The notes below the pieces were generated by a model. It saw only the letters and a list, made by a program, of their open reading frames with translations. It searched no databases and was not told where the DNA came from. Position numbers and translations under genes: made by a program. From assembly GCF_024055665.1 (NCBI RefSeq), contig NZ_JAMXMC010000006.1, positions 62,001-126,000 of the forward strand: a stretch of 64,000 bases of DNA. The letters run 5' to 3'. Shown here piece after piece: positions 6,668-64,000 of this stretch (within the stretch, counting starts at the first letter, position 1; every line of letters starts with the position of its first letter). The stretch comes from Ideonella oryzae (GTDB taxonomy: Bacteria; Pseudomonadota; Gammaproteobacteria; Burkholderiales; Burkholderiaceae_C).

Positions 6668-8830
6668 TTATCGGGTGGCGGACCGGTCGGTCACGATCTT
6701 GGGCGTGATGAACACCAGCAACTCAGTGCGGGTGGTGTAGCGTGTGCGGTCCTTGAACAGGTAACCCAACACGGGGATGTCACCCAACAGAGGCACCTTG
6801 TTGACGTCATCACGATCCTGCTGCGTGAAGATGCCACCGATAACCACCGTGCCACCGTTTTCCACCAGCACCTGCGTCTTCACATGCTTGGTGTTGATGG
6901 CCGGACCGGCGGTGGTATCGGTGCCACGGCTGTCGTTGTTGACCTCCAGGGCCAGGATCACATTGCCTTCGGGCGTGATCTGCGGCGTGACTTCCAGACG
7001 CAGACTGGCCTTCTTGAAGCTCACCGAGGTCGCGCCACTGGACGTGGCTTGCTGGTAGGGAATCTCCACCCCCTGCTCCACCTCGGCCTTGGTCTGATCC
7101 GTCGTGATCACCCGCGGACTGGACACCACCTTGCCCCGCCCTTCGGATTCCAGAGCAGAAAGCTCCAGGTTCAGGAAGCGGTTGGCCGAAGCACTGAAGA
7201 GCGACAGGGCAAACGATGCCGCCGAGGAGGTGGTGAACGCACTGGTGTTGGCCGGCAGACTGACGAACTGGGTGTTGTTGTAGGCGGTATTGGTGGTCTG
7301 CTGCCCGGTCTGGTAGCCGATCTGGTTGTAGTTGCCGCCGACGGTCACATAGTTGCTGCCGCCCACCGAGTAGCCCGGAATGCCGCCATTGACGCCTCGC
7401 AGATCGCTGGCGCCCAGTTTCACCCCCAATGCACGCCCAAAGGTATCGTCAGCCTCGACGACACGGGCCTCGATCAACACCTGACGCACCGGGATGTCGA
7501 TCTTGTTGATCATCATCGTCACCTCTTCCAGCTTGGACGGGATGTCCGACACGAAAAGCTGGTTGGTGCGGGTTTCGTAGAGCACGGAACCGCGCTCCGT
7601 CAGGATGCGGGTGGCCTTGCCGCTGCTGGACCCGGTCGACGTGGAATCACCGATCAGGGCCTTGGCCACTTCCTCGGCCTTGGTGTAGTTCAGCTGGAAC
7701 GACTGGGTGCGGACCGGCTCAAGGTCAGCGATCTTCTTCTTGGCCTCCAGATCCGCCTGCTCCTTGGTGGCCAACTCTTCCTTCGGCGCAATCCACAGCA
7801 CATTGCCCGACTTGCGCATGCCCAGGCCCTTGGCCTGCAGGATGATGTCCAGCGCCTGATCCCAAGGCACATCCTTCAGACGCAGCGTGACATTGCCGGT
7901 CACGGTGTCACTCGTCACCACATTGAAATTGGTGAAATCAGCGATCACCTGCAACAAGGCACGGACTTCGATGTTCTGGAAATTCAGGGACAGCTTCTCA
8001 CCCTGGTAGCCCGGGCCCTGAACTGCCTTGTTCGGGTCCATGCGCACGGGGCGGACCTCCAGAACGAACTGGTTGTCCGTCTGGTAGGCGCTGTGCTCCC
8101 ACGCACCCGTGGGGTGCACCACCATCCGCACCCGATCCCCGCTCTGCGTCGTCGTGATGCTCTGCACAGGCGATCCGAAGTCGGACACATCCAGTTTTCG
8201 CCGCAGGCTCTCCGGCAAGGTCGACTTCAGGAAATCGACCACCAGATTCTGTCCCTGCTGACGCAGGTCAACACCGACCTGCGTGCTGGCCAGCCCCACG
8301 ATCACCCGACCGGAGCCATCGGCCCCCCTTCGGAAGTCGATATCGCGAATGGCCAGTTGGTCCGCATTCTGGCTGTTCGCGAAGTGAACCGGCTGCGATC
8401 CGCCACCCGCCGTCGACGACGCGACGGCATCCAGCGAAATGGTCAGGATATTGCCCTGAACACGGGTCTGGTAGGTGGCCGTCTGCTTCAAGTTGAGCAC
8501 CAGGCGGGTACGTTCCCCCGTGCTGGCCACACTGACGGACCGCACATTGCCCTGGTTGATTTCAACATTGCCCACACCCAGGCCGTTGCCGACCTGCGGC
8601 AGATCCACGGCCACGCGCGGCGGGGCCTGAATGACGAAGCCGGAAGGCTGCGTCGCCAAGGGTTGGCTGAGTTCAACCCGGACCACCTCGCCGTTGGCCT
8701 GCTGGCTGGCGGTCACGGAACGGATCATGTTCTGGCTCTGTGCCCATGCCGGGGCGATCACGCCTGCGGACAGCAACACGGCAGCGGCAATCCAAGCACG
8801 CATCTTGCGAGACTCCAACCTGTTGTTCAT
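6668..8830 (-). CDS. pilQ: Type IV pilus secretin PilQ
   Basis: Outer-membrane secretin channel through which type IV pili pass. 720 aa: an Ala-rich signal peptide ending APAWA|QS, two AMIN-type peptidoglycan-binding domains (about 35-135 and 150-260), STN/N0 and secretin N domains (about 290-470, NFNVVTSDTVTGNVTLRL and PWDQALDIIL), and the secretin core ending LLVFITPKIV. The ATG overlaps the pilP stop by 4 nt (ATGA). M10 is an alternative start that keeps the signal peptide. Confidence 0.96.
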   Translation of the reverse strand: MNNRLESRKMRAWIAAAVLLSAGVIAPAWAQSQNMIRSVTASQQANGEVVRVELSQPLATQPSGFVIQAPPRVAVDLPQVGNGLGVGNVEINQGNVRSVSVASTGERTRLVLNLKQTATYQTRVQGNILTISLDAVASSTAGGGSQPVHFANSQNADQLAIRDIDFRRGADGSGRVIVGLASTQVGVDLRQQGQNLVVDFLKSTLPESLRRKLDVSDFGSPVQSITTTQSGDRVRMVVHPTGAWEHSAYQTDNQFVLEVRPVRMDPNKAVQGPGYQGEKLSLNFQNIEVRALLQVIADFTNFNVVTSDTVTGNVTLRLKDVPWDQALDIILQAKGLGMRKSGNVLWIAPKEELATKEQADLEAKKKIADLEPVRTQSFQLNYTKAEEVAKALIGDSTSTGSSSGKATRILTERGSVLYETRTNQLFVSDIPSKLEEVTMMINKIDIPVRQVLIEARVVEADDTFGRALGVKLGASDLRGVNGGIPGYSVGGSNYVTVGGNYNQIGYQTGQQTTNTAYNNTQFVSLPANTSAFTTSSAASFALSLFSASANRFLNLELSALESEGRGKVVSSPRVITTDQTKAEVEQGVEIPYQQATSSGATSVSFKKASLRLEVTPQITPEGNVILALEVNNDSRGTDTTAGPAINTKHVKTQVLVENGGTVVIGGIFTQQDRDDVNKVPLLGDIPVLGYLFKDRTRYTTRTELLVFITPKIVTDRSATR

Positions 8831-26712: not shown

Positions 26713-26728
26713 TGGCACGGGCATTGCA
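26713..26728 (+). promoter_or_regulatory. Sigma-54 -24/-12 promoter
   Basis: TGGCACGGGCATTGCA is a perfect match to TGGCACG-N4-TTGCW with 10 nt between GG and GC. The inferred +1 is 26739. It drives the three-gene operon starting at 26778. No TGT-N10-ACA was seen in the preceding 150 nt. Confidence 0.85.
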
Positions 26729-26738
26729 TGATTCGTTT

Positions 26739-26762
26739 CGCTATAGTTTCATGTATATAACG
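26739..26762 (+). promoter_or_regulatory. ModE-type molybdate operator
   Basis: CGCTATAG-N7-TATATAACG matches the ModE box (CGnTATAT / TATATAACG inverted halves). It begins at the inferred +1 of the sigma-54 promoter, so Mo-ModE should block initiation or early elongation. A second box of the same layout precedes modB. Confidence 0.82.
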
Positions 26763-26777
26763 CGACAAGGAGGCCCC

Positions 26778-27005
26778 ATGCCCCAGGTCAGCTCCCTCCC
26801 CCGCTTGCAGACCGCCTGCCTGCGGGGCATCCACCCGCGCCCGGGCGGCGCCGAAGCCGTGCTGGCCCTGGCCGGCTGGCAGTTCCTGCGCCTGCCGCTG
26901 ACGGCCGGCGAGGCCGCACTCTGGCGCCCCTGCGTGGGGCAGGCTGTGCAGGTCGATCTGGAGGCCCGCCGGTTGCGGCCCGCGCAGGGGCCCCGTCATG
27001 CCTGA
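26778..27005 (+). CDS. Unknown small protein, first gene of Mo-responsive sigma-54 operon
   Basis: 75 aa, not recognised. It begins MPQVSSLPRLQTACLRG, has a hydrophobic centre (AVLALAGWQFLRLPLTAGEAALW) and a basic C terminus. No signal peptide and a single Cys. AAGGAGG stands 4 nt before the ATG. The next gene overlaps its stop by 8 nt (ATGCCTGA), supporting real translation. Its expression logic (sigma-54 plus ModE box) ties it to nitrogen fixation under molybdenum shortage; the function is open. Confidence 0.6.
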   Translation: MPQVSSLPRLQTACLRGIHPRPGGAEAVLALAGWQFLRLPLTAGEAALWRPCVGQAVQVDLEARRLRPAQGPRHA

Positions 27006-27369
27006 AACCGCCATCGACCCCCTGGCCTGGCTGGACGAATTGCCTGCGGACTACGCGGTGCAGGTGGTGCCGCCCATCCGTTACGAGAGCCACGAGGACG
27101 CGCCGGCCCATGCCCGCATGGTGGTGGGGCTGGATGCGCAAGGGCAGCGCTGCTACCTGCGTCACACCCACACCGTGACCGAAGACCGCTTCGACATCGA
27201 CGAGTTCCCGCTGGAGGTGGCGGTGCTGCGTGAGCGGCGCATCGCCTGGCGTCTGTCCAACGGCCAGTGGCTGACGCTGCTGGACCGGGCGGACCGGCTG
27301 GACAGCTGTCGCCCCCGGGTGGTGCGCGAAGGCCCCCATCCCGCCCCCAGCCCGCTGCCATCGGCCTGA
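26998..27369 (+). CDS. Unknown acidic protein in Mo-responsive operon
   Basis: 123 aa, not recognised. Soluble, no Cys motif beyond isolated residues, mixed beta-like pattern (MVVGLDAQGQRCYLRHTHTV, then DEFPLEVAVLRERRIAWRL). Overlaps the previous gene by 8 nt and precedes the globin-like gene by 39 nt. Probably cotranscribed with both. Confidence 0.6.
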   Translation: MPETAIDPLAWLDELPADYAVQVVPPIRYESHEDAPAHARMVVGLDAQGQRCYLRHTHTVTEDRFDIDEFPLEVAVLRERRIAWRLSNGQWLTLLDRADRLDSCRPRVVREGPHPAPSPLPSA

Positions 27370-27408
27370 GGCCTGCACCCAACCCGACAAACACGACACA
27401 CGCCCCCG

Positions 27409-28005
27409 ATGGCTTCGCAGTCTCCACCCGATCTCCCCGTCCCCGCACGCTGGCAGCCCTGTGACCACGTCTGCCAGCGCACGCTGCGGTGGCCGGTGCG
27501 GCAGGACGCCGGGCCCACCCGGCTCGCGGACGGCTTCGTCACGGCGGCCCCCTGCCTGCTGCCCGAGGTGCCCCTGCCCGCGCACAGCGTGCTGGCCCTG
27601 TGCGGCGAGGCGGGCATCCGCCGCCTGGTGCACCGCCACATGACCCGCCTGCGCCTGACCCCCTTGCTGGCCGACGTGCAGGACTGCTTCGACTGCGTGG
27701 CCGACCGGGTGGCCGATTTCGTGATCGAGTCCTGCGGCGGCCCGCTGTACTACAGCCAGCACCACAGCCGGCTGCAGGCCGGTGGCGGTCTGCCGGTGCT
27801 GCTGGACGAGGTGGGGCGCGAGATCTGGCTGGTGCAGCTCTGGCACAGCTTCGACGATGTGGGCTGGCCGCGCAGCCTGCGGGCCGATCTGTGGCGCTGG
27901 GCCGAGCCGCTGTCGCTGCATCTGCTGGCGCCCCGGGCCCGGCGCGCGCCGCTGCGCCGCTACCCCTTCGAGGAGGTGCGCGCCTGGTTCCGCACGCCGG
28001 CCTGA
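27409..28005 (+). CDS. Truncated-haemoglobin-like protein lacking the proximal His
   Basis: 198 aa. Residues 65-175 follow the truncated haemoglobin pattern: CGEAGIRRLVHRHM (helix A/B), CFDCVADRVADFVIESCGGPLYYS (helix E), and EIWLVQLWHSFDDVGWP with the conserved G-helix Trp140, then LWRWAEPLSL. In relatives the segment before the F/G turn reads RxRHxPF. Here it is LQAGGGLPV, so the proximal haem ligand is Gly127, with His118/His119 nearby. The N terminus is Cys-containing and extended. It lies in a sigma-54/ModE-controlled operon. It may bind haem differently or have lost haem binding. Confidence 0.68.
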   Translation: MASQSPPDLPVPARWQPCDHVCQRTLRWPVRQDAGPTRLADGFVTAAPCLLPEVPLPAHSVLALCGEAGIRRLVHRHMTRLRLTPLLADVQDCFDCVADRVADFVIESCGGPLYYSQHHSRLQAGGGLPVLLDEVGREIWLVQLWHSFDDVGWPRSLRADLWRWAEPLSLHLLAPRARRAPLRRYPFEEVRAWFRTPA

Positions 28006-28011
28006 GCGCCC

Positions 28012-28890
28012 TCAGGCCGCGTCAGCCGGGCCGATGTGCACCTGCACCTCGGCCGGCGGCGCGAAGTACGGCGCCGAACTGACCAGCAAATCGGCCCCGG
28101 CGCGGGCATAGGCCAGGGCGTTGCCCCGGTTCACGCCGCCGGCGGGCGCCAGGCGCGTGGCCAGGCCCTCGGCCCGCAGGGCCTGGTGCAGCCGGGCCAC
28201 CGCCTCGGGGGTGAAGCGTTCGAGCTGCAGCACATCCACGCCCAGCCGGGCCAGGGCCAGGGCCTCGTCCTCGTCCCCGGTCTCCACCACCAGGCGCTTT
28301 TCCGGCTGCTGATGGCGCAGGGCCTGCAGGCGCGCGCTCACCTCGCCGGCCGGCAGCAAGGCCCGGTGTTCCGGAAAGACCAACAGCGTTTCCGACAGCC
28401 CCAGCCGGTGCATCACCGCGCCCCCGGCCTCGATGGCCTGCGCCGCCCACCAGTGGGTGCCCGGCGGGGCCTTGCGGGTGCAGGCCAGCGGAATGTCCGA
28501 GCCCTCAGCCCGCAGGGCATCCACGATGGCAGCAGCGCCGCGCGCCATGCCGCTGGCCGCTTCCACCAGGTTCTGGGCCACCTTCCAGCCCAGCAGCACG
28601 CCCTCGGCCGGCCCCTGTCCGGCCAGCAGCAGCGCGCCATCGTCCACCCGCGCGCCGCTGGCCACGGCGGGCTGGGCGGCCACACCGCAGAGCTGCAGCA
28701 GGCGTGTGGCGGCCTCGATGGCGGCCACCACCCCCGGCCCTCGGGCGTGGAAGTGGATCTGTGCCGGCCGGCCAGCCAAGCCCAGCGACCGCGTGCTGAG
28801 GTCGCCGTGGGGCGCGTCCTCGCGCAGCAGGGCGCGCAGGCGCTCGTCCTCCAGTCCGCCGGCCCAGGGGCCTGCGAGGGCCGGGCTCAT
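28012..28890 (-). CDS. modD: ModD, quinolinate phosphoribosyltransferase-like molybdenum protein
   Basis: 292-aa member of the ModD family, homologous to NadC but encoded with molybdate transporters; its biochemical role is not settled. Marks include EDAPHGDLSTR, CTRKAPPGTHWWAAQAI with the His-rich substrate region, VETGDEDEALALA, and GGVNRGNALAYARAGADLLV. It overlaps modC by 4 nt and is the last gene of modBACD. Confidence 0.87.
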   Translation of the reverse strand: MSPALAGPWAGGLEDERLRALLREDAPHGDLSTRSLGLAGRPAQIHFHARGPGVVAAIEAATRLLQLCGVAAQPAVASGARVDDGALLLAGQGPAEGVLLGWKVAQNLVEAASGMARGAAAIVDALRAEGSDIPLACTRKAPPGTHWWAAQAIEAGGAVMHRLGLSETLLVFPEHRALLPAGEVSARLQALRHQQPEKRLVVETGDEDEALALARLGVDVLQLERFTPEAVARLHQALRAEGLATRLAPAGGVNRGNALAYARAGADLLVSSAPYFAPPAEVQVHIGPADAA

Positions 28891-29675
28891 GGTGGCCCCG
28901 CCTGCGCCAGCAAGCGGCGCACGGCACGGGTGCGGTCGTCTTCCACAGGGGGCGGTGACAGGCCGAGGCCGCCGTGCAGCACCTCGCGACTGATGCCCCG
29001 GTGGACGTTCACTTCGCGCACCACCCGCCCCTGCTCCAGCACGCAGGCCACGTCGGCCAGGGCCAGCACGTCCTCCACGTCGTGGGTGATCAGCAGCATC
29101 GGAACGCGCCAGCGCTCGCGCACCAGCGCCAGCTCCTGGCGCAGGCTCTGGCGCAGCATCGGGTTGAGTGCCGCGAAGGGTTCGTCCAGCAGCAGCAGCT
29201 CGGGCTCGCAGGCCAGGGCGCGGGCCAGGGCCACACGCTGCCGCTGGCCGCCCGAGAGCGCCCCCGGCCGGGCCTGGGCCAGACCCGTCAGGCCGAAGGT
29301 CTCCAGCAGGCCATCCACGCGCTCGGCGTCGGCCGGTCGCAGCCGGCGCTGGCGCCAGCTCGTCAGCCCGAAGCCCACGTTCTGCAGCACGGTGAGGTGG
29401 GGAAACAGTGCGTAGTCCTGGAACAGGTAGCCCACACGCCGCTGGGCGGCGGGCAGGTCCACGCGCGTCTGGGCATCGAACAGCGTGCGGCCACCGATGC
29501 GCACATGGCCGCCCTGCGGCTGGATCAGCCCGGCGATGGCCTGCAGAGTCAACGACTTGCCCGCGCCCGAGGGGCCGAACAGGGCCAGCACCGGCGCATC
29601 GCTGGCAAAGCGCACCGCCAGCTCGAAATGCCGGTGGCGGTCGGCCATGGCCAGCTGCAGGTCAACGTCGATCAT
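28887..29675 (-). CDS. modC: Molybdate ABC transporter ATPase ModC, without TOBE domain
   Basis: 262 aa. Walker A GPSGAGKS about residue 34, Q-loop FQDYALFPH, signature LSGGQRQRVALARAL, Walker B LLLLDEPFAAL and switch H in ITHDVED. ModC normally has about 350 residues with a C-terminal TOBE molybdate-binding domain. Here the chain ends about 30 residues after the ABC domain core, so that domain is absent. Assigned as ModC by its place between modA and modD. Confidence 0.9.
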   Translation of the reverse strand: MIDVDLQLAMADRHRHFELAVRFASDAPVLALFGPSGAGKSLTLQAIAGLIQPQGGHVRIGGRTLFDAQTRVDLPAAQRRVGYLFQDYALFPHLTVLQNVGFGLTSWRQRRLRPADAERVDGLLETFGLTGLAQARPGALSGGQRQRVALARALACEPELLLLDEPFAALNPMLRQSLRQELALVRERWRVPMLLITHDVEDVLALADVACVLEQGRVVREVNVHRGISREVLHGGLGLSPPPVEDDRTRAVRRLLAQAGPP

Positions 29676-29711: not shown

Positions 29712-30491
29712 TCAGGGCTTGCCAAAGCCCGCGGCAGCCAGCACCTTCTGGGCCGGCGGGCTCAGCAGATAGGCAGCGAACTTCTCGGTGGCGGCCTTCT
29801 GCTTGCTGTCGCTGACCAGGATCATCGGGTAGGTGACCGGCTTGTGGCCCCCCACCGTCATCACCACCTTGACCTTGTCGGGCATGATGGCCGCATCGGT
29901 CGAATAGACGAAACCGGCGTCCACTTCGCCGCGCGACACATAGTCCAGCACCTGGCGCACGCTGTCGGCAAAGACGAACTTCGGCTCCAGCGCGTTCCAC
30001 AGGTGCACCGACTCCAGCGATTCCTTGGTGTAGCGGCCCACCGGGACGCTCGCCAGCTTGCCCACGGCAATGCGCTTCACGCCGCTGCCGTACAGGTCGG
30101 CCAGACCGGTCACCGGCTTCGGGTCCTGGGCCGGCAGGATCAGCACCACCGTGTTGGTGGCCAGGGTTTTGCGGGACGGGGCATCGAACAGCTTCTGGCC
30201 GATGCCCTTGTCCACCGTCGCCTCGTCAGCGCTGATGAACAGGTCCACCGGCGCACCCTGGCTGATCTGCTGCAACAGCACGCCCGAAGCGGCGAAGTTG
30301 AACTGCAGCTTCACGCCCGGATGGGCAGCCTCGTACTTGGCTCCCAGGTCCTTGAGCACATTGGTCATGCTGGCCGCGGCCGAGACGGTGAGCTGCTGGG
30401 CCGAGGCCGCCAGGCTGGACAGGCCCAGGGCCAGCGCCCCCAGAGTGCTCACCAGGGAGCGGCGGCGCAGCGCGGTTTCACGGAATGACAT
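29712..30491 (-). CDS. modA: Molybdate-binding periplasmic protein ModA
   Basis: 259 aa from MSFRETALRRRSLV. Twin-basic/hydrophobic signal ending ASA|QQLTVSAAASM; the SAAASMTNVLKDL motif with the oxyanion-binding Ser is typical of ModA, as are FNFAASGVLLQQI and VDAGFVYSTDA. GGAGG lies 8 nt before this ATG; an earlier in-frame start would displace the signal. Confidence 0.93.
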   Translation of the reverse strand: MSFRETALRRRSLVSTLGALALGLSSLAASAQQLTVSAAASMTNVLKDLGAKYEAAHPGVKLQFNFAASGVLLQQISQGAPVDLFISADEATVDKGIGQKLFDAPSRKTLATNTVVLILPAQDPKPVTGLADLYGSGVKRIAVGKLASVPVGRYTKESLESVHLWNALEPKFVFADSVRQVLDYVSRGEVDAGFVYSTDAAIMPDKVKVVMTVGGHKPVTYPMILVSDSKQKAATEKFAAYLLSPPAQKVLAAAGFGKP

Positions 30492-30521
30492 GGACAACAC
30501 CTCCAGAAATGGAAAGGACAT

Positions 30522-31199
30522 TCAGTTCTTGCGGGCCAGCAACCCATTCGACAGCACCAGCACCGAGACCGACAGCACCGAGGTGACCAGCACCAGGGCC
30601 AGCGCGATGTCGTCCTCGCCGGCCTGCACCGAGTCGTAGATGGCCATCGACAGGGTCTGCGTCTTGCCCGGGATGGAGCCCGCCACCATCAGCGAGGCGC
30701 CGAACTCGCCCATCGCGCGGGCGAAAGCCAGCAGGGTGCCGGCGACGATGCCCGGCCCGGCCAGCGGCAGCGTCACGCGCAGGAAGACCGACCAGGGCGA
30801 CTGCCGCAGGGTGCGGGCCGCCGCCTCCAGTTGGTGGTCCACCTGGCCGAAGGCCGCGCTGGCCGACTTGAGCACCAGCGGCAGGGCCACGATGGCCGAG
30901 GCCACCACCGCCCCGTGCCAGCTGAAGATGATCGAGTAGTCGAGGTGCTCGTGCAGCCAGCTGCCCAACGGGCTGCGCCGGCCGGCGGCCAGCAGGATGG
31001 CGTAGCCGATCACCGTGGGCGGCAACACCAGCGGCAGCATGCAGATGGCTTCGAGCACGCCCCGCCCGGGCAGCTGGGTGCGGGCGAAGACCCAGCCCAG
31101 GCCCACCCCGAAGAACCAGGCCAGCGCCGTCGCCACGCCCGCCACCTTCAGCGAGAGCCAGAATGGGGCCCAGTCCAGGGTCTGTAGGGTTTGCCACAT
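30522..31199 (-). CDS. modB: Molybdate ABC transporter permease ModB
   Basis: 225 aa from MWQTLQTLDW, with about five membrane helices and the EAA-type loop EAAARTLRQSPWSVFLRVTLPLAGPGI-like segment, then RAMGEFGASLMVAG. Unusually it is the first gene of the operon. The ATG lies one nucleotide from the ModE-type box and has no Shine-Dalgarno sequence; an in-frame TTG at 31232 lies inside or upstream of the box. Initiation may therefore be leaderless or use a weak site. Confidence 0.9.
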   Translation of the reverse strand: MWQTLQTLDWAPFWLSLKVAGVATALAWFFGVGLGWVFARTQLPGRGVLEAICMLPLVLPPTVIGYAILLAAGRRSPLGSWLHEHLDYSIIFSWHGAVVASAIVALPLVLKSASAAFGQVDHQLEAAARTLRQSPWSVFLRVTLPLAGPGIVAGTLLAFARAMGEFGASLMVAGSIPGKTQTLSMAIYDSVQAGEDDIALALVLVTSVLSVSVLVLSNGLLARKN

Positions 31200-31200
31200 T

Positions 31201-31224
31201 CGCTGTATTTTGACGTATATAACG
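31201..31224 (-). promoter_or_regulatory. ModE-type molybdate operator before modBACD
   Basis: CGCTGTAT-N7-TATATAACG, the same 8-7-9 layout as the box at 26739 and 20 of 24 positions identical to it. It directly abuts the modB start, so Mo-ModE would repress the transporter when molybdate is plentiful. Confidence 0.85.
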
Positions 31225-31274
31225 AAGGACAAGCAAACCGCGGGCCAATGCCGACCCGCCGTCGGTCGATGGGG

Positions 31275-31727
31275 TCAGTGAGGGTGCACGCCCAGGCCAC
31301 CCACGGTGGCAGCCGGCAGCGGCATGGGGGCGGCCGCGGTGTCCTCGGGGGCCTCGAAGCACTGCGCGTGGTCCGAGCAGACGGCGCAGCTGGGCGACTT
31401 GCAGATCAGGATCTCGGCCTGCTGGCAGAGCTGGCGGTAGAAGAACTTCTTCCACTTCATGTCGCCGGTGTTCAGCGCCACCAGCGAGGGGAACCAGTGG
31501 CGCAGCAGGGCCCCCAGCTCGCCGCGGTGGGCCAGCTGCAGGTCCTGCCAGAGGTGGTCGTCGCCCAGGCAGGCCACGGCCACCGCCTGGGCCACCAGCC
31601 AGGCCATCTCGGCCGGGCCGGCTGCCGGGTCGGCATGGGCCAGCAGCAGGCCACGCACATCCTCCACCTCATCGCCCCGGCGGGCCAGGCGGTCAGCGAA
31701 GTCGGTGCGCAGTGCCGGCTGGGCCAT
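31275..31727 (-). CDS. nifQ: Nitrogen fixation protein NifQ
   Basis: 150 aa. NifQ donates molybdenum for FeMo-cofactor synthesis as a Mo-Fe-S carrier. Family marks are MKWKKFFYRQLC and the C-terminal Cys pattern C-x4-C-x2-C-x5-C (CKSPSCAVCSDHAQC). Last gene of the nifN operon, beside the molybdate transport genes. It starts 3 nt after fdxB ends. Confidence 0.92.
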   Translation of the reverse strand: MAQPALRTDFADRLARRGDEVEDVRGLLLAHADPAAGPAEMAWLVAQAVAVACLGDDHLWQDLQLAHRGELGALLRHWFPSLVALNTGDMKWKKFFYRQLCQQAEILICKSPSCAVCSDHAQCFEAPEDTAAAPMPLPAATVGGLGVHPH

Positions 31728-31730
31728 GGC

Positions 31731-32036
31731 TCAGACCTCGGCCGCGGCGTGCGTGTAGCACTTCTTGGGGCAGATCTTCGCGCAGGCGGTGCAGCCGATG
31801 CACAACTCCTGGTGCGCGATGGTCATCACCTTCTTCTCGTATTCCTCGTCCTCGTCGTCGTCCAGATCGACGTGGATGCGTTCGCCGTCCTCGGTCAGAC
31901 CGACCAGTTCCAGCACGCCACGGGGGCAGACCTTGAAGCAGCGGCCGCAGCCGATGCACTTGTCTTCGTTAAGTTCCTGCACAAAGGTGGGCGTCCATTC
32001 GGCGCCGCTGGGCAGGGTGACTTGAAAGGCGGACAT
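31731..32036 (-). CDS. fdxB: Nif-specific ferredoxin III (2x[4Fe-4S])
   Basis: 101 aa with two C-x2-C-x2-C-x3-C cluster motifs (CIGCGRCFKVCP at about 27-38, CIGCTACAKICP near 79-90), separated by a very acidic stretch (DLDDDEDEEYEKK). Typical of FdxB encoded downstream of nifENX, a probable electron donor to nitrogenase or FeMo-co assembly. Confidence 0.93.
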   Translation of the reverse strand: MSAFQVTLPSGAEWTPTFVQELNEDKCIGCGRCFKVCPRGVLELVGLTEDGERIHVDLDDDEDEEYEKKVMTIAHQELCIGCTACAKICPKKCYTHAAAEV

Positions 32037-38716: not shown

Positions 38717-40261
38717 TCAGGCCGGCAAGCGGAAGCCGCTGATGACCTGCGCGAGCTGACCGGCCTGCTGCCGCAGGCTTTCCGAGGCCGCGGCCGACTG
38801 TTCGACCAGGGCCGCGTTCTGCTGGGTCATCTGGTCCAGGTGGGACACGGCGGTGTTCATCTCGGCAATGCCGCGGCTCTGTTCGCTGGCCGCCACCGAG
38901 ATCTCGCTGACGATCTGGCGCACCTGCGCCACGCTGTCCACCACCTGGCGGATCGTCTGCCCCGCATCGCTGACCAGGCGTGAGCCACTGCCCACCTGCT
39001 CGACGCTGGCGCCGATCAGGGTCTTGATCTCCTTGGCGGCCTCGGCGCTGCGCTGGGCCAGGCTGCGCACCTCGCCGGCCACCACCGCGAAGCCGCGGCC
39101 CTGCTCGCCGGCGCGGGCGGCTTCCACCGCCGCGTTCAGGGCCAGGATGTTGGTCTGGAAGGCGATGCCGTCGATCACGCCGATGATGTCGGCGATCTTC
39201 TGGCTGGCCTGGTGGATGCCATCCATGGTGGCCACCACCTGCTGCATCACCGCCCCCCCCTGCTGGGCCACGGTTTCGGCGCCATCGGCCAGGCGGTTGG
39301 CGGTCTGGGCGGCCTCGGCGGTGTGCTTGACGGTGCCGGTGAGCTCCTCCATCGAGCTGGCACTCTCCTCCAGGCTGGAGGCGGCCTGTTCGGTGCGGGC
39401 GCTCAGGTCGGTGTTGCCGGCGGCCACCTCGCGGCTGGCCACCTCGATCGAATCGGTCGCCTGACGGGCCTGGCTGACCAGGTTGCGCAGCGCGACCTGC
39501 ATCTGCGCCACGTCCTGCATCAGGCGCGCAGCCTCGGAATCGCCCGCCAGGGTCGGCACTTCGCGGCTCAGGTCACCCTGGGCGATGGCCTGGGCGGCGT
39601 CCTGCAGCCGGGCCAGCGGCGTGGTGATGCTGCGCACCTGGCTCCAGCCCAGGGCCGCCGCCAGCAGTGCGCAAACCGCCGTCACCCCCCACAGGGTGTT
39701 GCGGGCGGCGGCCAGCTCGGCGTCGATCTGCCGGCCCAGCGCGGCGCTGCGGCCCAGCTGGAACTTCACCATCTCGGTGGCCTCGACGATGTAGCCGTCG
39801 GCCACCGCCCGGAACTTCTGGCCCGCGACCAGACGGACATCGGCATCGCCCTGGGCCTTGAGCACGGCGTCACGCTCGGCCAGGTACAGCTTGCGCGCCT
39901 CGCCCAACCGGGCTTGGACTTGCAGACCCTCGGGCGAGGTCTCCATCTCGGTGTAGCGCTTCTGGATCTCGGAAGTGCGCGTCGTGGTGGTCTTGACCGC
40001 ATCCTTGAAGAAATCGGCCAGGCGGGCGTCGGCGGTGACGCCGATGGCCAGGGCCCGCTGGGAGTTGACGACGATGTTCTCGCGCCACTCCTGGGCCAGG
40101 GCCAGGCGCTCGGCCTGCTCGGTCAGCAGCACATGGCTGTCCGCCTCCACCCTCAGCAGTTCGCGGAAGGTCAGGCCAGCCATGACGACCATCAGCAGGA
40201 TCACCAGCCCATAGCCCAGGGCAAGCTGTCGACCCACCTTCATCCGACTCAGCGCATTCAT
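38717..40261 (-). CDS. Methyl-accepting chemotaxis protein
   Basis: 514 aa. Helix 1 (about 13-33), a four-helix-bundle periplasmic sensor (34-190), helix 2 (191-212), HAMP ([20 protein letters not shown]), then the signalling domain with hairpin tip ([39 protein letters not shown]). No C-terminal NWETF pentapeptide. A sigma-28-like promoter lies upstream. The ligand is unknown. Confidence 0.94.
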
Positions 40262-48640: not shown

Positions 48641-48656
48641 TGCAACGGCCGTGCCA
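48641..48656 (-). promoter_or_regulatory. Sigma-54 promoter of nifHDK
   Basis: Minus-strand TGGCACGGCCGTTGCA is a perfect TGGCACG-N4-TTGCW. Inferred +1 at 48630. Confidence 0.93.
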
Positions 48657-48921: not shown

Positions 48922-48937
48922 TGGTACGGGGTTTGCA
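48922..48937 (+). promoter_or_regulatory. Sigma-54 promoter of trHb-draTG operon
   Basis: TGGTACGGGGTTTGCA fits TGGYACR-N4-TTGCW with exact spacing. Inferred +1 at 48948, only 2 nt before the ATG of the first gene. Confidence 0.82.

Positions 48938-62712: not shown

Positions 62713-64000
<1,288 letters not shown>

Follow-up and report, generated by a model that had tools for sequence, protein, structure and literature searches.

The closest described precedents for the locus reported here combine a sigma-54 (RpoN) promoter with a site for a ModE-type regulator. In Rhodobacter capsulatus, the molybdate-transporter-like operon morAB is NifA/RpoN-dependent and Mo-repressed, and the ModE-type proteins MopA and MopB repress it via Mo-boxes, as stated in the available excerpt of that report (PMC6925177). 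In Azotobacter vinelandii, a putative ModE site accompanies the sigma-54 promoter of anfA, the gene for an alternative-nitrogenase activator (excerpt of PMC9542535). A globin gene beside molybdenum transport genes has also been described: the truncated globin gene gloA of Acidithiobacillus ferrooxidans is part of an Fe-Mo transport cluster adjoining nif, its authors proposed an oxygen sensor, and the excerpt of the paper mentions no ModE or sigma-54 promoter (PMC2631029).

The Ideonella oryzae locus resembles morAB in joining an RpoN promoter to a ModE-type box. Unlike morAB, the arrangement stands here before a globin-fold operon and before modBACD in a member of the Betaproteobacteria, with no NifA site found upstream and no AnfG/VnfG. 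The anfA promoter likewise pairs a sigma-54 element with a putative ModE site but controls an alternative-nitrogenase activator, and no alternative-nitrogenase G subunit was found here. By its description gloA is similar in being a truncated globin gene that adjoins nif within a TonB/ABC cluster, where a molybdate-type binding protein is also encoded. The initial annotation had proposed an undescribed kind of switch; given morAB and anfA as precedents this was not borne out, and the switch logic is of a known kind. Two things are new as far as our searches show: that such a switch stands before a gene for a globin fold, and the altered branch of globins involved. Among titles and opening lines of abstracts in the open-licence literature, none dealt with this operon or with a globin under ModE control.

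Results

A sigma-54 element and a ModE box precede the globin operon

The window, i.e. the whole 64-kb stretch of DNA that was analysed, carries three open reading frames behind a sigma-54 -24/-12 element with spacer GGCA (TGGCACG-GGCA-TTGCA) and a ModE box (CGCTATAGT-TTCATG-TATATAACG), scored against the published consensus CGNTATATA-N6-TATATANCG (excerpt of PMC545781). Both elements had been claimed in the initial annotation, and both were found as described (Table 1). The perfect -24/-12 string occurs three times across the 4.70-Mb genome and, inside the window, only at the globin operon and nifH. Sites matching at least 11 of the 16 ModE consensus letters number two in the 64-kb window, this one and the one upstream of modB, both 14/16; first-order Markov simulations (n = 60) gave means of 0.4 sites at 11/16 and 0.03 at 12/16, and none at 13/16 or better. 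When 399 genomes of the order were scanned for the sigma-54 plus ModE composite, three matched. The I. oryzae genome had two matches; the other two genomes, which share a different genus, had a single match each, in both cases ahead of a gene labelled modA-like by eye. The reversed-pattern control matched 1 of 399 genomes.

Table 1. Features of the globin operon and the adjoining mod and nif genes, with positions in the window.
Feature	Position	Strand	Evidence
sigma-54 -24/-12 element, TGGCACG-N4-TTGCA	26713..26728	+	12/12; GG-N10-GC kept in L004, L005, L014, L006
ModE box CGCTATAGT-N6-TATATAACG, overlaps inferred transcription start	26739..26762	+	14/16
ribosome-binding-site-like AAGGAGG	26767..26773	+	read directly
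P1, 75 aa	26778..27005	+	no Pfam/NCBIfam match at E<=1
P2, 123 aa	26998..27369	+	no Pfam/NCBIfam match at E<=1
P3, 198 aa, Hell's-gate-globin-IV-type truncated globin fold	27409..28005	+	no His at aligned F8; cysteines 18, 22, 65, 93, 96, 109
modD	28012..28890	-	TIGR01334 248.7 bits, over cut-off
modC	28887..29675	-	TIGR02142 best match 200.8 bits, below cut-off 285
modA	29712..30521	-	TIGR01256 over cut-off
modB	30522..31199	-	TIGR02141 over cut-off
second ModE box CGTTATATA-N6-AATACAGCG, upstream of modB	31201..31224	-	14/16
second -24/-12 element TGGCCCG-N4-TTGCT	31232..31247	-	10/12
nifQ	31275..31727	-	PF04891 E=9.2e-43
fdxB-type nif-specific ferredoxin III	31731..32036	-	TIGR02936 over cut-off

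A gene for the globin, P3, was present in 3 of 15 other genomes of the genus searched: Ideonella sp. B508-1 (genome G406, locus L004), I. benzenivorans (G411, L005) and G404 (L014). All three keep the composite, with ModE boxes scoring 14, 14 and 15 of 16 in L004, L005 and L014; the L014 promoter reads TGGCACA-N4-ATGCT followed by its 15/16 box. The GG and GC 10 nt apart are kept in all four genus members with the globin and also on the Paraburkholderia aromaticivorans plasmid pBN1 (L006). In the comparison with L004 and L005, the box was kept and the sequence upstream of -24 was more variable.

That transcription starts at the first letter of the box had been derived solely from spacing. The distance from the -12 GC to the box is 11 nt in the window, but among relatives it varies from 7 to 14 nt (11, 12, 7 and 14 nt in L004, L005, L014 and L006). 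A box overlapping the inferred start occupies a repressor position, which suggests repression when Mo is present.

No exact TGT-N10-ACA, the NifA site, was found within 400 nt upstream in five globin-gene and four modB promoters, while a similar scan did find the NifA site at nifH; an upstream NifA site for these promoters was therefore rejected. One TGT-N10-ACA overlaps the ModE box itself (26752–26767); it is kept in L004 and L005 and not in L014, i.e. it is present in three of the four genus members, window included, and we give it little weight. The genome does encode the regulators concerned: rpoN (TIGR02395, 451 bits, over cut-off), a ModE gene (TIGR00637, 96.4 bits, just under the 98.5 cut-off, in a frame that continues through a region resembling two TOBE repeats by eye), and NifA. 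The NifA model matches 20 times in the genome, once over cut-off, so that other enhancer-binding proteins are available. The switch originally predicted, on with NifA and off with molybdate, thus stands in its conserved sigma-54/ModE composite and its RpoN, NifA and ModE genes, but not in specific control by NifA. Sigma-54 activation combined with ModE repression is very probably the correct reading of this promoter.

A facing promoter of the same build precedes modBACD

The second ModE box lies 4.5 kb from the first and abuts the modB ATG at 31199, the start that we prefer although the listed open reading frame extends to a TTG at 31232. Together with the second -24/-12 element it forms a composite promoter that faces the first across modBACD and the globin operon. 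In L004, L005 and L014, the modB box scores 14, 13 and 14 of 16 and the -24/-12 element 10, 10 and 9 of 12; both composites thus recur in the three same-genus relatives examined. The initial annotation had mentioned neither the modB composite, nor that globins of this family are linked to Mo-uptake loci, nor the missing haem-ligand histidine described below. The window also contains nifH, nifD, nifK, nifE and nifN.

ModE boxes with at most three mismatches number five at four places in the I. oryzae genome, and two in the reversed-pattern control. The places are the globin operon, modB, a ModA-like binding-protein gene (two boxes) and a TonB-dependent receptor gene with binding-protein and di-haem peroxidase genes downstream. 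AnfG/VnfG was not found in the genome (99% complete, 31 contigs), and a link to an alternative nitrogenase was rejected for that reason. Taken with the RpoN, NifA and ModE genes, the negative search for AnfG/VnfG and the four boxed places, the operon is consistent with a molybdenum regulon in a diazotroph that uses Mo-nitrogenase. The build of these promoters, their conservation and the set of boxed genes can be read off the sequences; we infer that the operon is transcribed as such and that Mo and nitrogen do control it.

Two of the boxed loci lie largely or wholly outside the window. The ModA-like gene (L055:6457-7398) has its boxes (15/16 and 13/16) at 7534-7691. The TonB locus (L056:714-9024; own genome C28:124713-133023), whose first gene overlaps window positions 62713-64000, comprises the ModE-boxed TonB receptor, a binding protein, a di-haem peroxidase (DHOR) and a CxxCxxCC-domain protein, and is, judged from its genes, a candidate outer-membrane Mo uptake system.

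P1 and P2 accompany the globin in part of the genus

The three open reading frames had been described as two unrecognised small proteins and a globin-like protein in tight overlap. The protein assignments agree with our searches, in which P1 and P2 had no family match and P3 was globin-like. The overlap applies to genes 1 and 2 (8 bp); gene 3 follows gene 2 after a gap of 39 bp. The trio was seen in three of the four genus members with the globin, being present in L004 and L005, with identities to the two copies of 76% and 65% for P1, 94% and 83% for P2, and 89% and 80% for P3. Pairwise dN/dS in three comparisons each was 0.44–0.58 for P1 (the L005 copy taken from three codons before its ATG), 0.09–0.33 for P2 and 0.23–0.28 for P3, and P1 and P2 are therefore considered to be coding. 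A P2 profile had no match in the PDB at E<=10, and its structure prediction was poor (pLDDT 41) and was not used.

In G404 the globin is 67% identical over 186 residues, and the 19 kb around it contain no P1 or P2. No homologues were found on plasmids at E<=0.1 for P1 or E<=0.01 for P2. Among 88 loci, which include G404, the two Paraburkholderia plasmids and three TonB loci, P1 and P2 matched solely in those from G406, G411 and the genome of the window. The trio is thus not supported as the conserved unit; provisionally, P1 and P2 are additions restricted so far to this genus, and the conserved product of the operon, as the homologue searches have it, is P3.

P3 is a Hell's gate globin IV-type protein with no histidine at the aligned F8 position

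P3 matches Hell's gate globin IV (HGbIV; 4nk1/4nk2) of Methylacidiphilum infernorum both by sequence and by predicted fold. The P3 model has a mean pLDDT of 71, with residues 1–45 and 116–129 below 50, and its F region is unreliable. The Pfam Bac_globin model does not recognise P3 (no family at E<=1); the relatives in genome G196 and the first of two in G577 do pass it. Searches of P3 against Pfam and NCBIfam gave 0 families each, so that no domain for DNA binding or signalling was recognised.

At the aligned F8 position the six nif-linked members carry G (five) or K (one); the histidine of 4nk1, His124 by counting, aligns with P3 Gly127, and the F8 histidine is retained by alignment in the relatives from G196 and G577 (H in the G196 alignment). 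P3 thus seems to be without the usual haem anchor, judged from these alignments. Given that the F region of the model is unreliable and that histidines at 118–121 vary, the haem ligand may instead have shifted to that region. Cysteines 18, 22, 65, 96 and 109 are present in 6/6 nif-linked members and cysteine 93 in 5/6. Cysteines 65, 93 and 96 are without counterpart in the alignment with HGbIV, and in the G196 relative a CxC lies close to the N-terminus and position 109 is a cysteine, but 65, 93 and 96 are not. On the distal side, a 2014 J Biochem paper is said to place His70, His71, Ser97 and Trp137 in the HGbIV pocket; P3 keeps two of these, as His77 and Trp140, in one alignment, in which HGbIV His71 aligns with P3 Met78, and the other alignment shifts the gap. 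The title of the HGbIV PDB entry reads 'phosphate-bound'. The fold relation and the residue changes are plain from sequence comparison; the apparent loss of the haem anchor hints that this globin may serve the handling of molybdenum rather than oxygen.

The P3 family is tied to nif/mod or metal-uptake loci

Beyond the genus, P. aromaticivorans pBN1 and P. sprentiae pl2WSM5005 (L007) carry the globin gene directly after nifQ, followed by a DUF2325 gene. The pBN1 globin intergenic region has a 9/12 -24/-12 element and a 12/16 ModE box, against an expectation of 0.04 sites of at least 12/16 in 21 kb. The co-directional run there is globin-DUF2325-LLM-modB-modA-ATPase-TOBE gene, with the DUF2325 and LLM flavin-oxidoreductase genes between globin and modB at L006:9330-10963. 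On pl2WSM5005 the box scores 11/16 (expected 1.5, not significant alone), and nod genes on the other strand come next, not mod genes.

The relatives in G196, G577 and G205 lie directly behind binding-protein genes with TonB-receptor-like open reading frames nearby. G196 additionally has a ModE gene nearby, and G577 a two-TOBE protein. In G205 the additional neighbour is an SBP_bac_11 (molybdate-type) binding protein; the globin copy there is a fragment that shares 57% identity over 84 residues with that of G196. Boxes of 13/16 and 12/16 lie at the start of the G205 TonB-receptor-like frame, ~2.6 kb before the binding-protein gene (expected 0.00 and 0.05, 150 simulations). At the G196 globin, sites of 12/16 and 11/16 are at chance level (expected 0.32 for at least 12 and 2.9 for at least 11 in 19 kb), and the best site at the G577 globin is 11/16. 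The L056 locus of I. oryzae contains homologues of four genes found at the G196 globin locus, namely those for the TonB receptor, the binding protein, the di-haem peroxidase and the CxxCxxCC protein.

Altogether, strong family members were found at nif/mod or TonB/binding-protein (metal-uptake) loci in 9/9 genomes or records: the window, G406/L004, G411/L005, G404, pBN1, pl2WSM5005, G196, G205 (the fragment) and G577 (two copies). These nine are not independent, four being of one genus and two of another; the search in the order of G577 covered one genome; and the TonB loci are called Mo loci from their neighbours only, TonB and binding-protein genes also serving iron. Weak globin matches (11 of 13 genomes of one search, 29 non-window genomes of another) and the second globin of the window's genome stand outside this count. 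Thirty of the 40 weak-match genomes were checked as loci, and their best matches to the G196/G577 globin were E=8.6e-15 or weaker, as compared with 6e-27 or stronger for the strong copies in G196, G577, G404 and G205; a weak Nonomuraea match reached 32% over half the protein. Neighbours within ~1.5 kb were queried with mod, nifQ, fdxB, kdp, ModE, TonB, binding-protein and permease proteins. One of the 30 had a ModE gene (G600) and the others had no query match; wider neighbourhoods (4.5–16 kb) had such a gene in 0/8, save one weak TonB-receptor match 7 kb away, and three further weak-match loci (L041-L043) were read by eye only. Judged from its neighbours, the P3 family is linked beyond nif, too, to uptake loci that carry Mo-type genes.

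Discussion

In the explanation that we favour, positions 26713-28005 would form a transcription unit of the molybdenum regulon in a Mo-nitrogenase diazotroph of the Ideonella group. Sigma-54 RNA polymerase would start near 26739 under nitrogen limitation, via some active enhancer-binding protein, and molybdate-loaded ModE on 26739-26762 would block transcription. A facing promoter of the same build would drive modBACD, so that the two units should respond in concert and be expressed when neither fixed nitrogen nor Mo is plentiful. P1-P2-P3 and ModBACD would then be made only when Mo is short, and P3 may help acquire, hold or pass on the scarce Mo. Since its family adjoins molybdate or TonB/binding-protein uptake genes and nif genes, we infer for P3 an accessory role in the cytoplasm, in Mo acquisition or in delivery towards NifQ and FeMo-cofactor. 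Taken as a whole, this explanation is the best available and probably correct, if by no wide measure, and a Mo role for P3, considered separately, is rated about as probable. A much more specific proposal, that the nif-linked HGbIV-type branch, with its proximal ligand lost and its cysteines invariant, binds, reduces or carries Mo or a Mo-Fe-S unit between ModABC and NifQ, off with Mo and on with nitrogen limitation, is speculative and on balance unlikely.

Gene neighbourhood does not show function, and oxygen or NO handling would also suit the vicinity of nif. P3 might thus be a globin that handles oxygen or NO and shields nitrogenase or its assembly, its Mo control arising from co-production with mod and nif genes. 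The globin fold, the nif neighbourhood and the F8 histidine kept in the G196 and G577 relatives are all consistent with such a shield. However, all six nif-linked members lack the aligned F8 histidine. Moreover, protection would be needed with Mo present, when Mo-nitrogenase is most active, yet the position of the box suggests repression at that time. We consider a shielding role unlikely. A sensor of oxygen or redox state for the Mo-uptake genes, as proposed for gloA (excerpt of PMC2631029), would agree with the association of strong members with uptake or nif loci in every genome or record; given that P3 contains no recognised DNA-binding or signalling domain and that the nif-linked subgroup is missing the F8 histidine, this role is quite improbable. 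It is equally doubtful that the -24/-12 element is real but ModE activates, or NtrC or another enhancer-binding protein mainly drives transcription in place of a NifA AND-NOT Mo switch: this would suit the lack of an upstream NifA site and the other enhancer-binding proteins in the genome, but the box overlaps the inferred start in a repressor position and Mop proteins repress morAB via Mo-boxes (excerpt of PMC6925177).

If P3 is an accessory of Mo acquisition, its place would be at a step that to our knowledge is poorly resolved, the route by which Mo, when scarce, passes from ModABC to NifQ and FeMo-cofactor. P3 is a testable candidate for Mo transfer, with a promoter that matches the transporter's, conservation beside nifQ and mod, and an unexpected fold. 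We also know of no clear physiological role for the HGbIV globin family, which the nine loci above now tie to nif/mod or metal uptake.

Several further features of these loci were observed. In G577, two tandem HGbIV-type globin genes (L040:9078-10219; 53% identical over 145 residues) lie behind binding-protein genes and TonB-receptor-like open reading frames, of which two were recognised by similarity and one by eye, with the two-TOBE (molbindin-like) protein adjoining. In G600, a more ordinary truncated globin gene precedes a ModE gene by ~0.3 kb (L032:1504-2911); this ModE is 44% identical to that of G196, so that a globin-ModE neighbourhood occurs outside the HGbIV type as well. Within the window, nifH has its perfect -24/-12 element at 48641-48656 (-) with the NifA site 96 nt upstream, and a divergent 11/12 element at 48922-48937 (+) appears to share that site. 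The nif region also includes a methyl-accepting chemotaxis protein gene (38717-40261, -), located between nifE and nifK.
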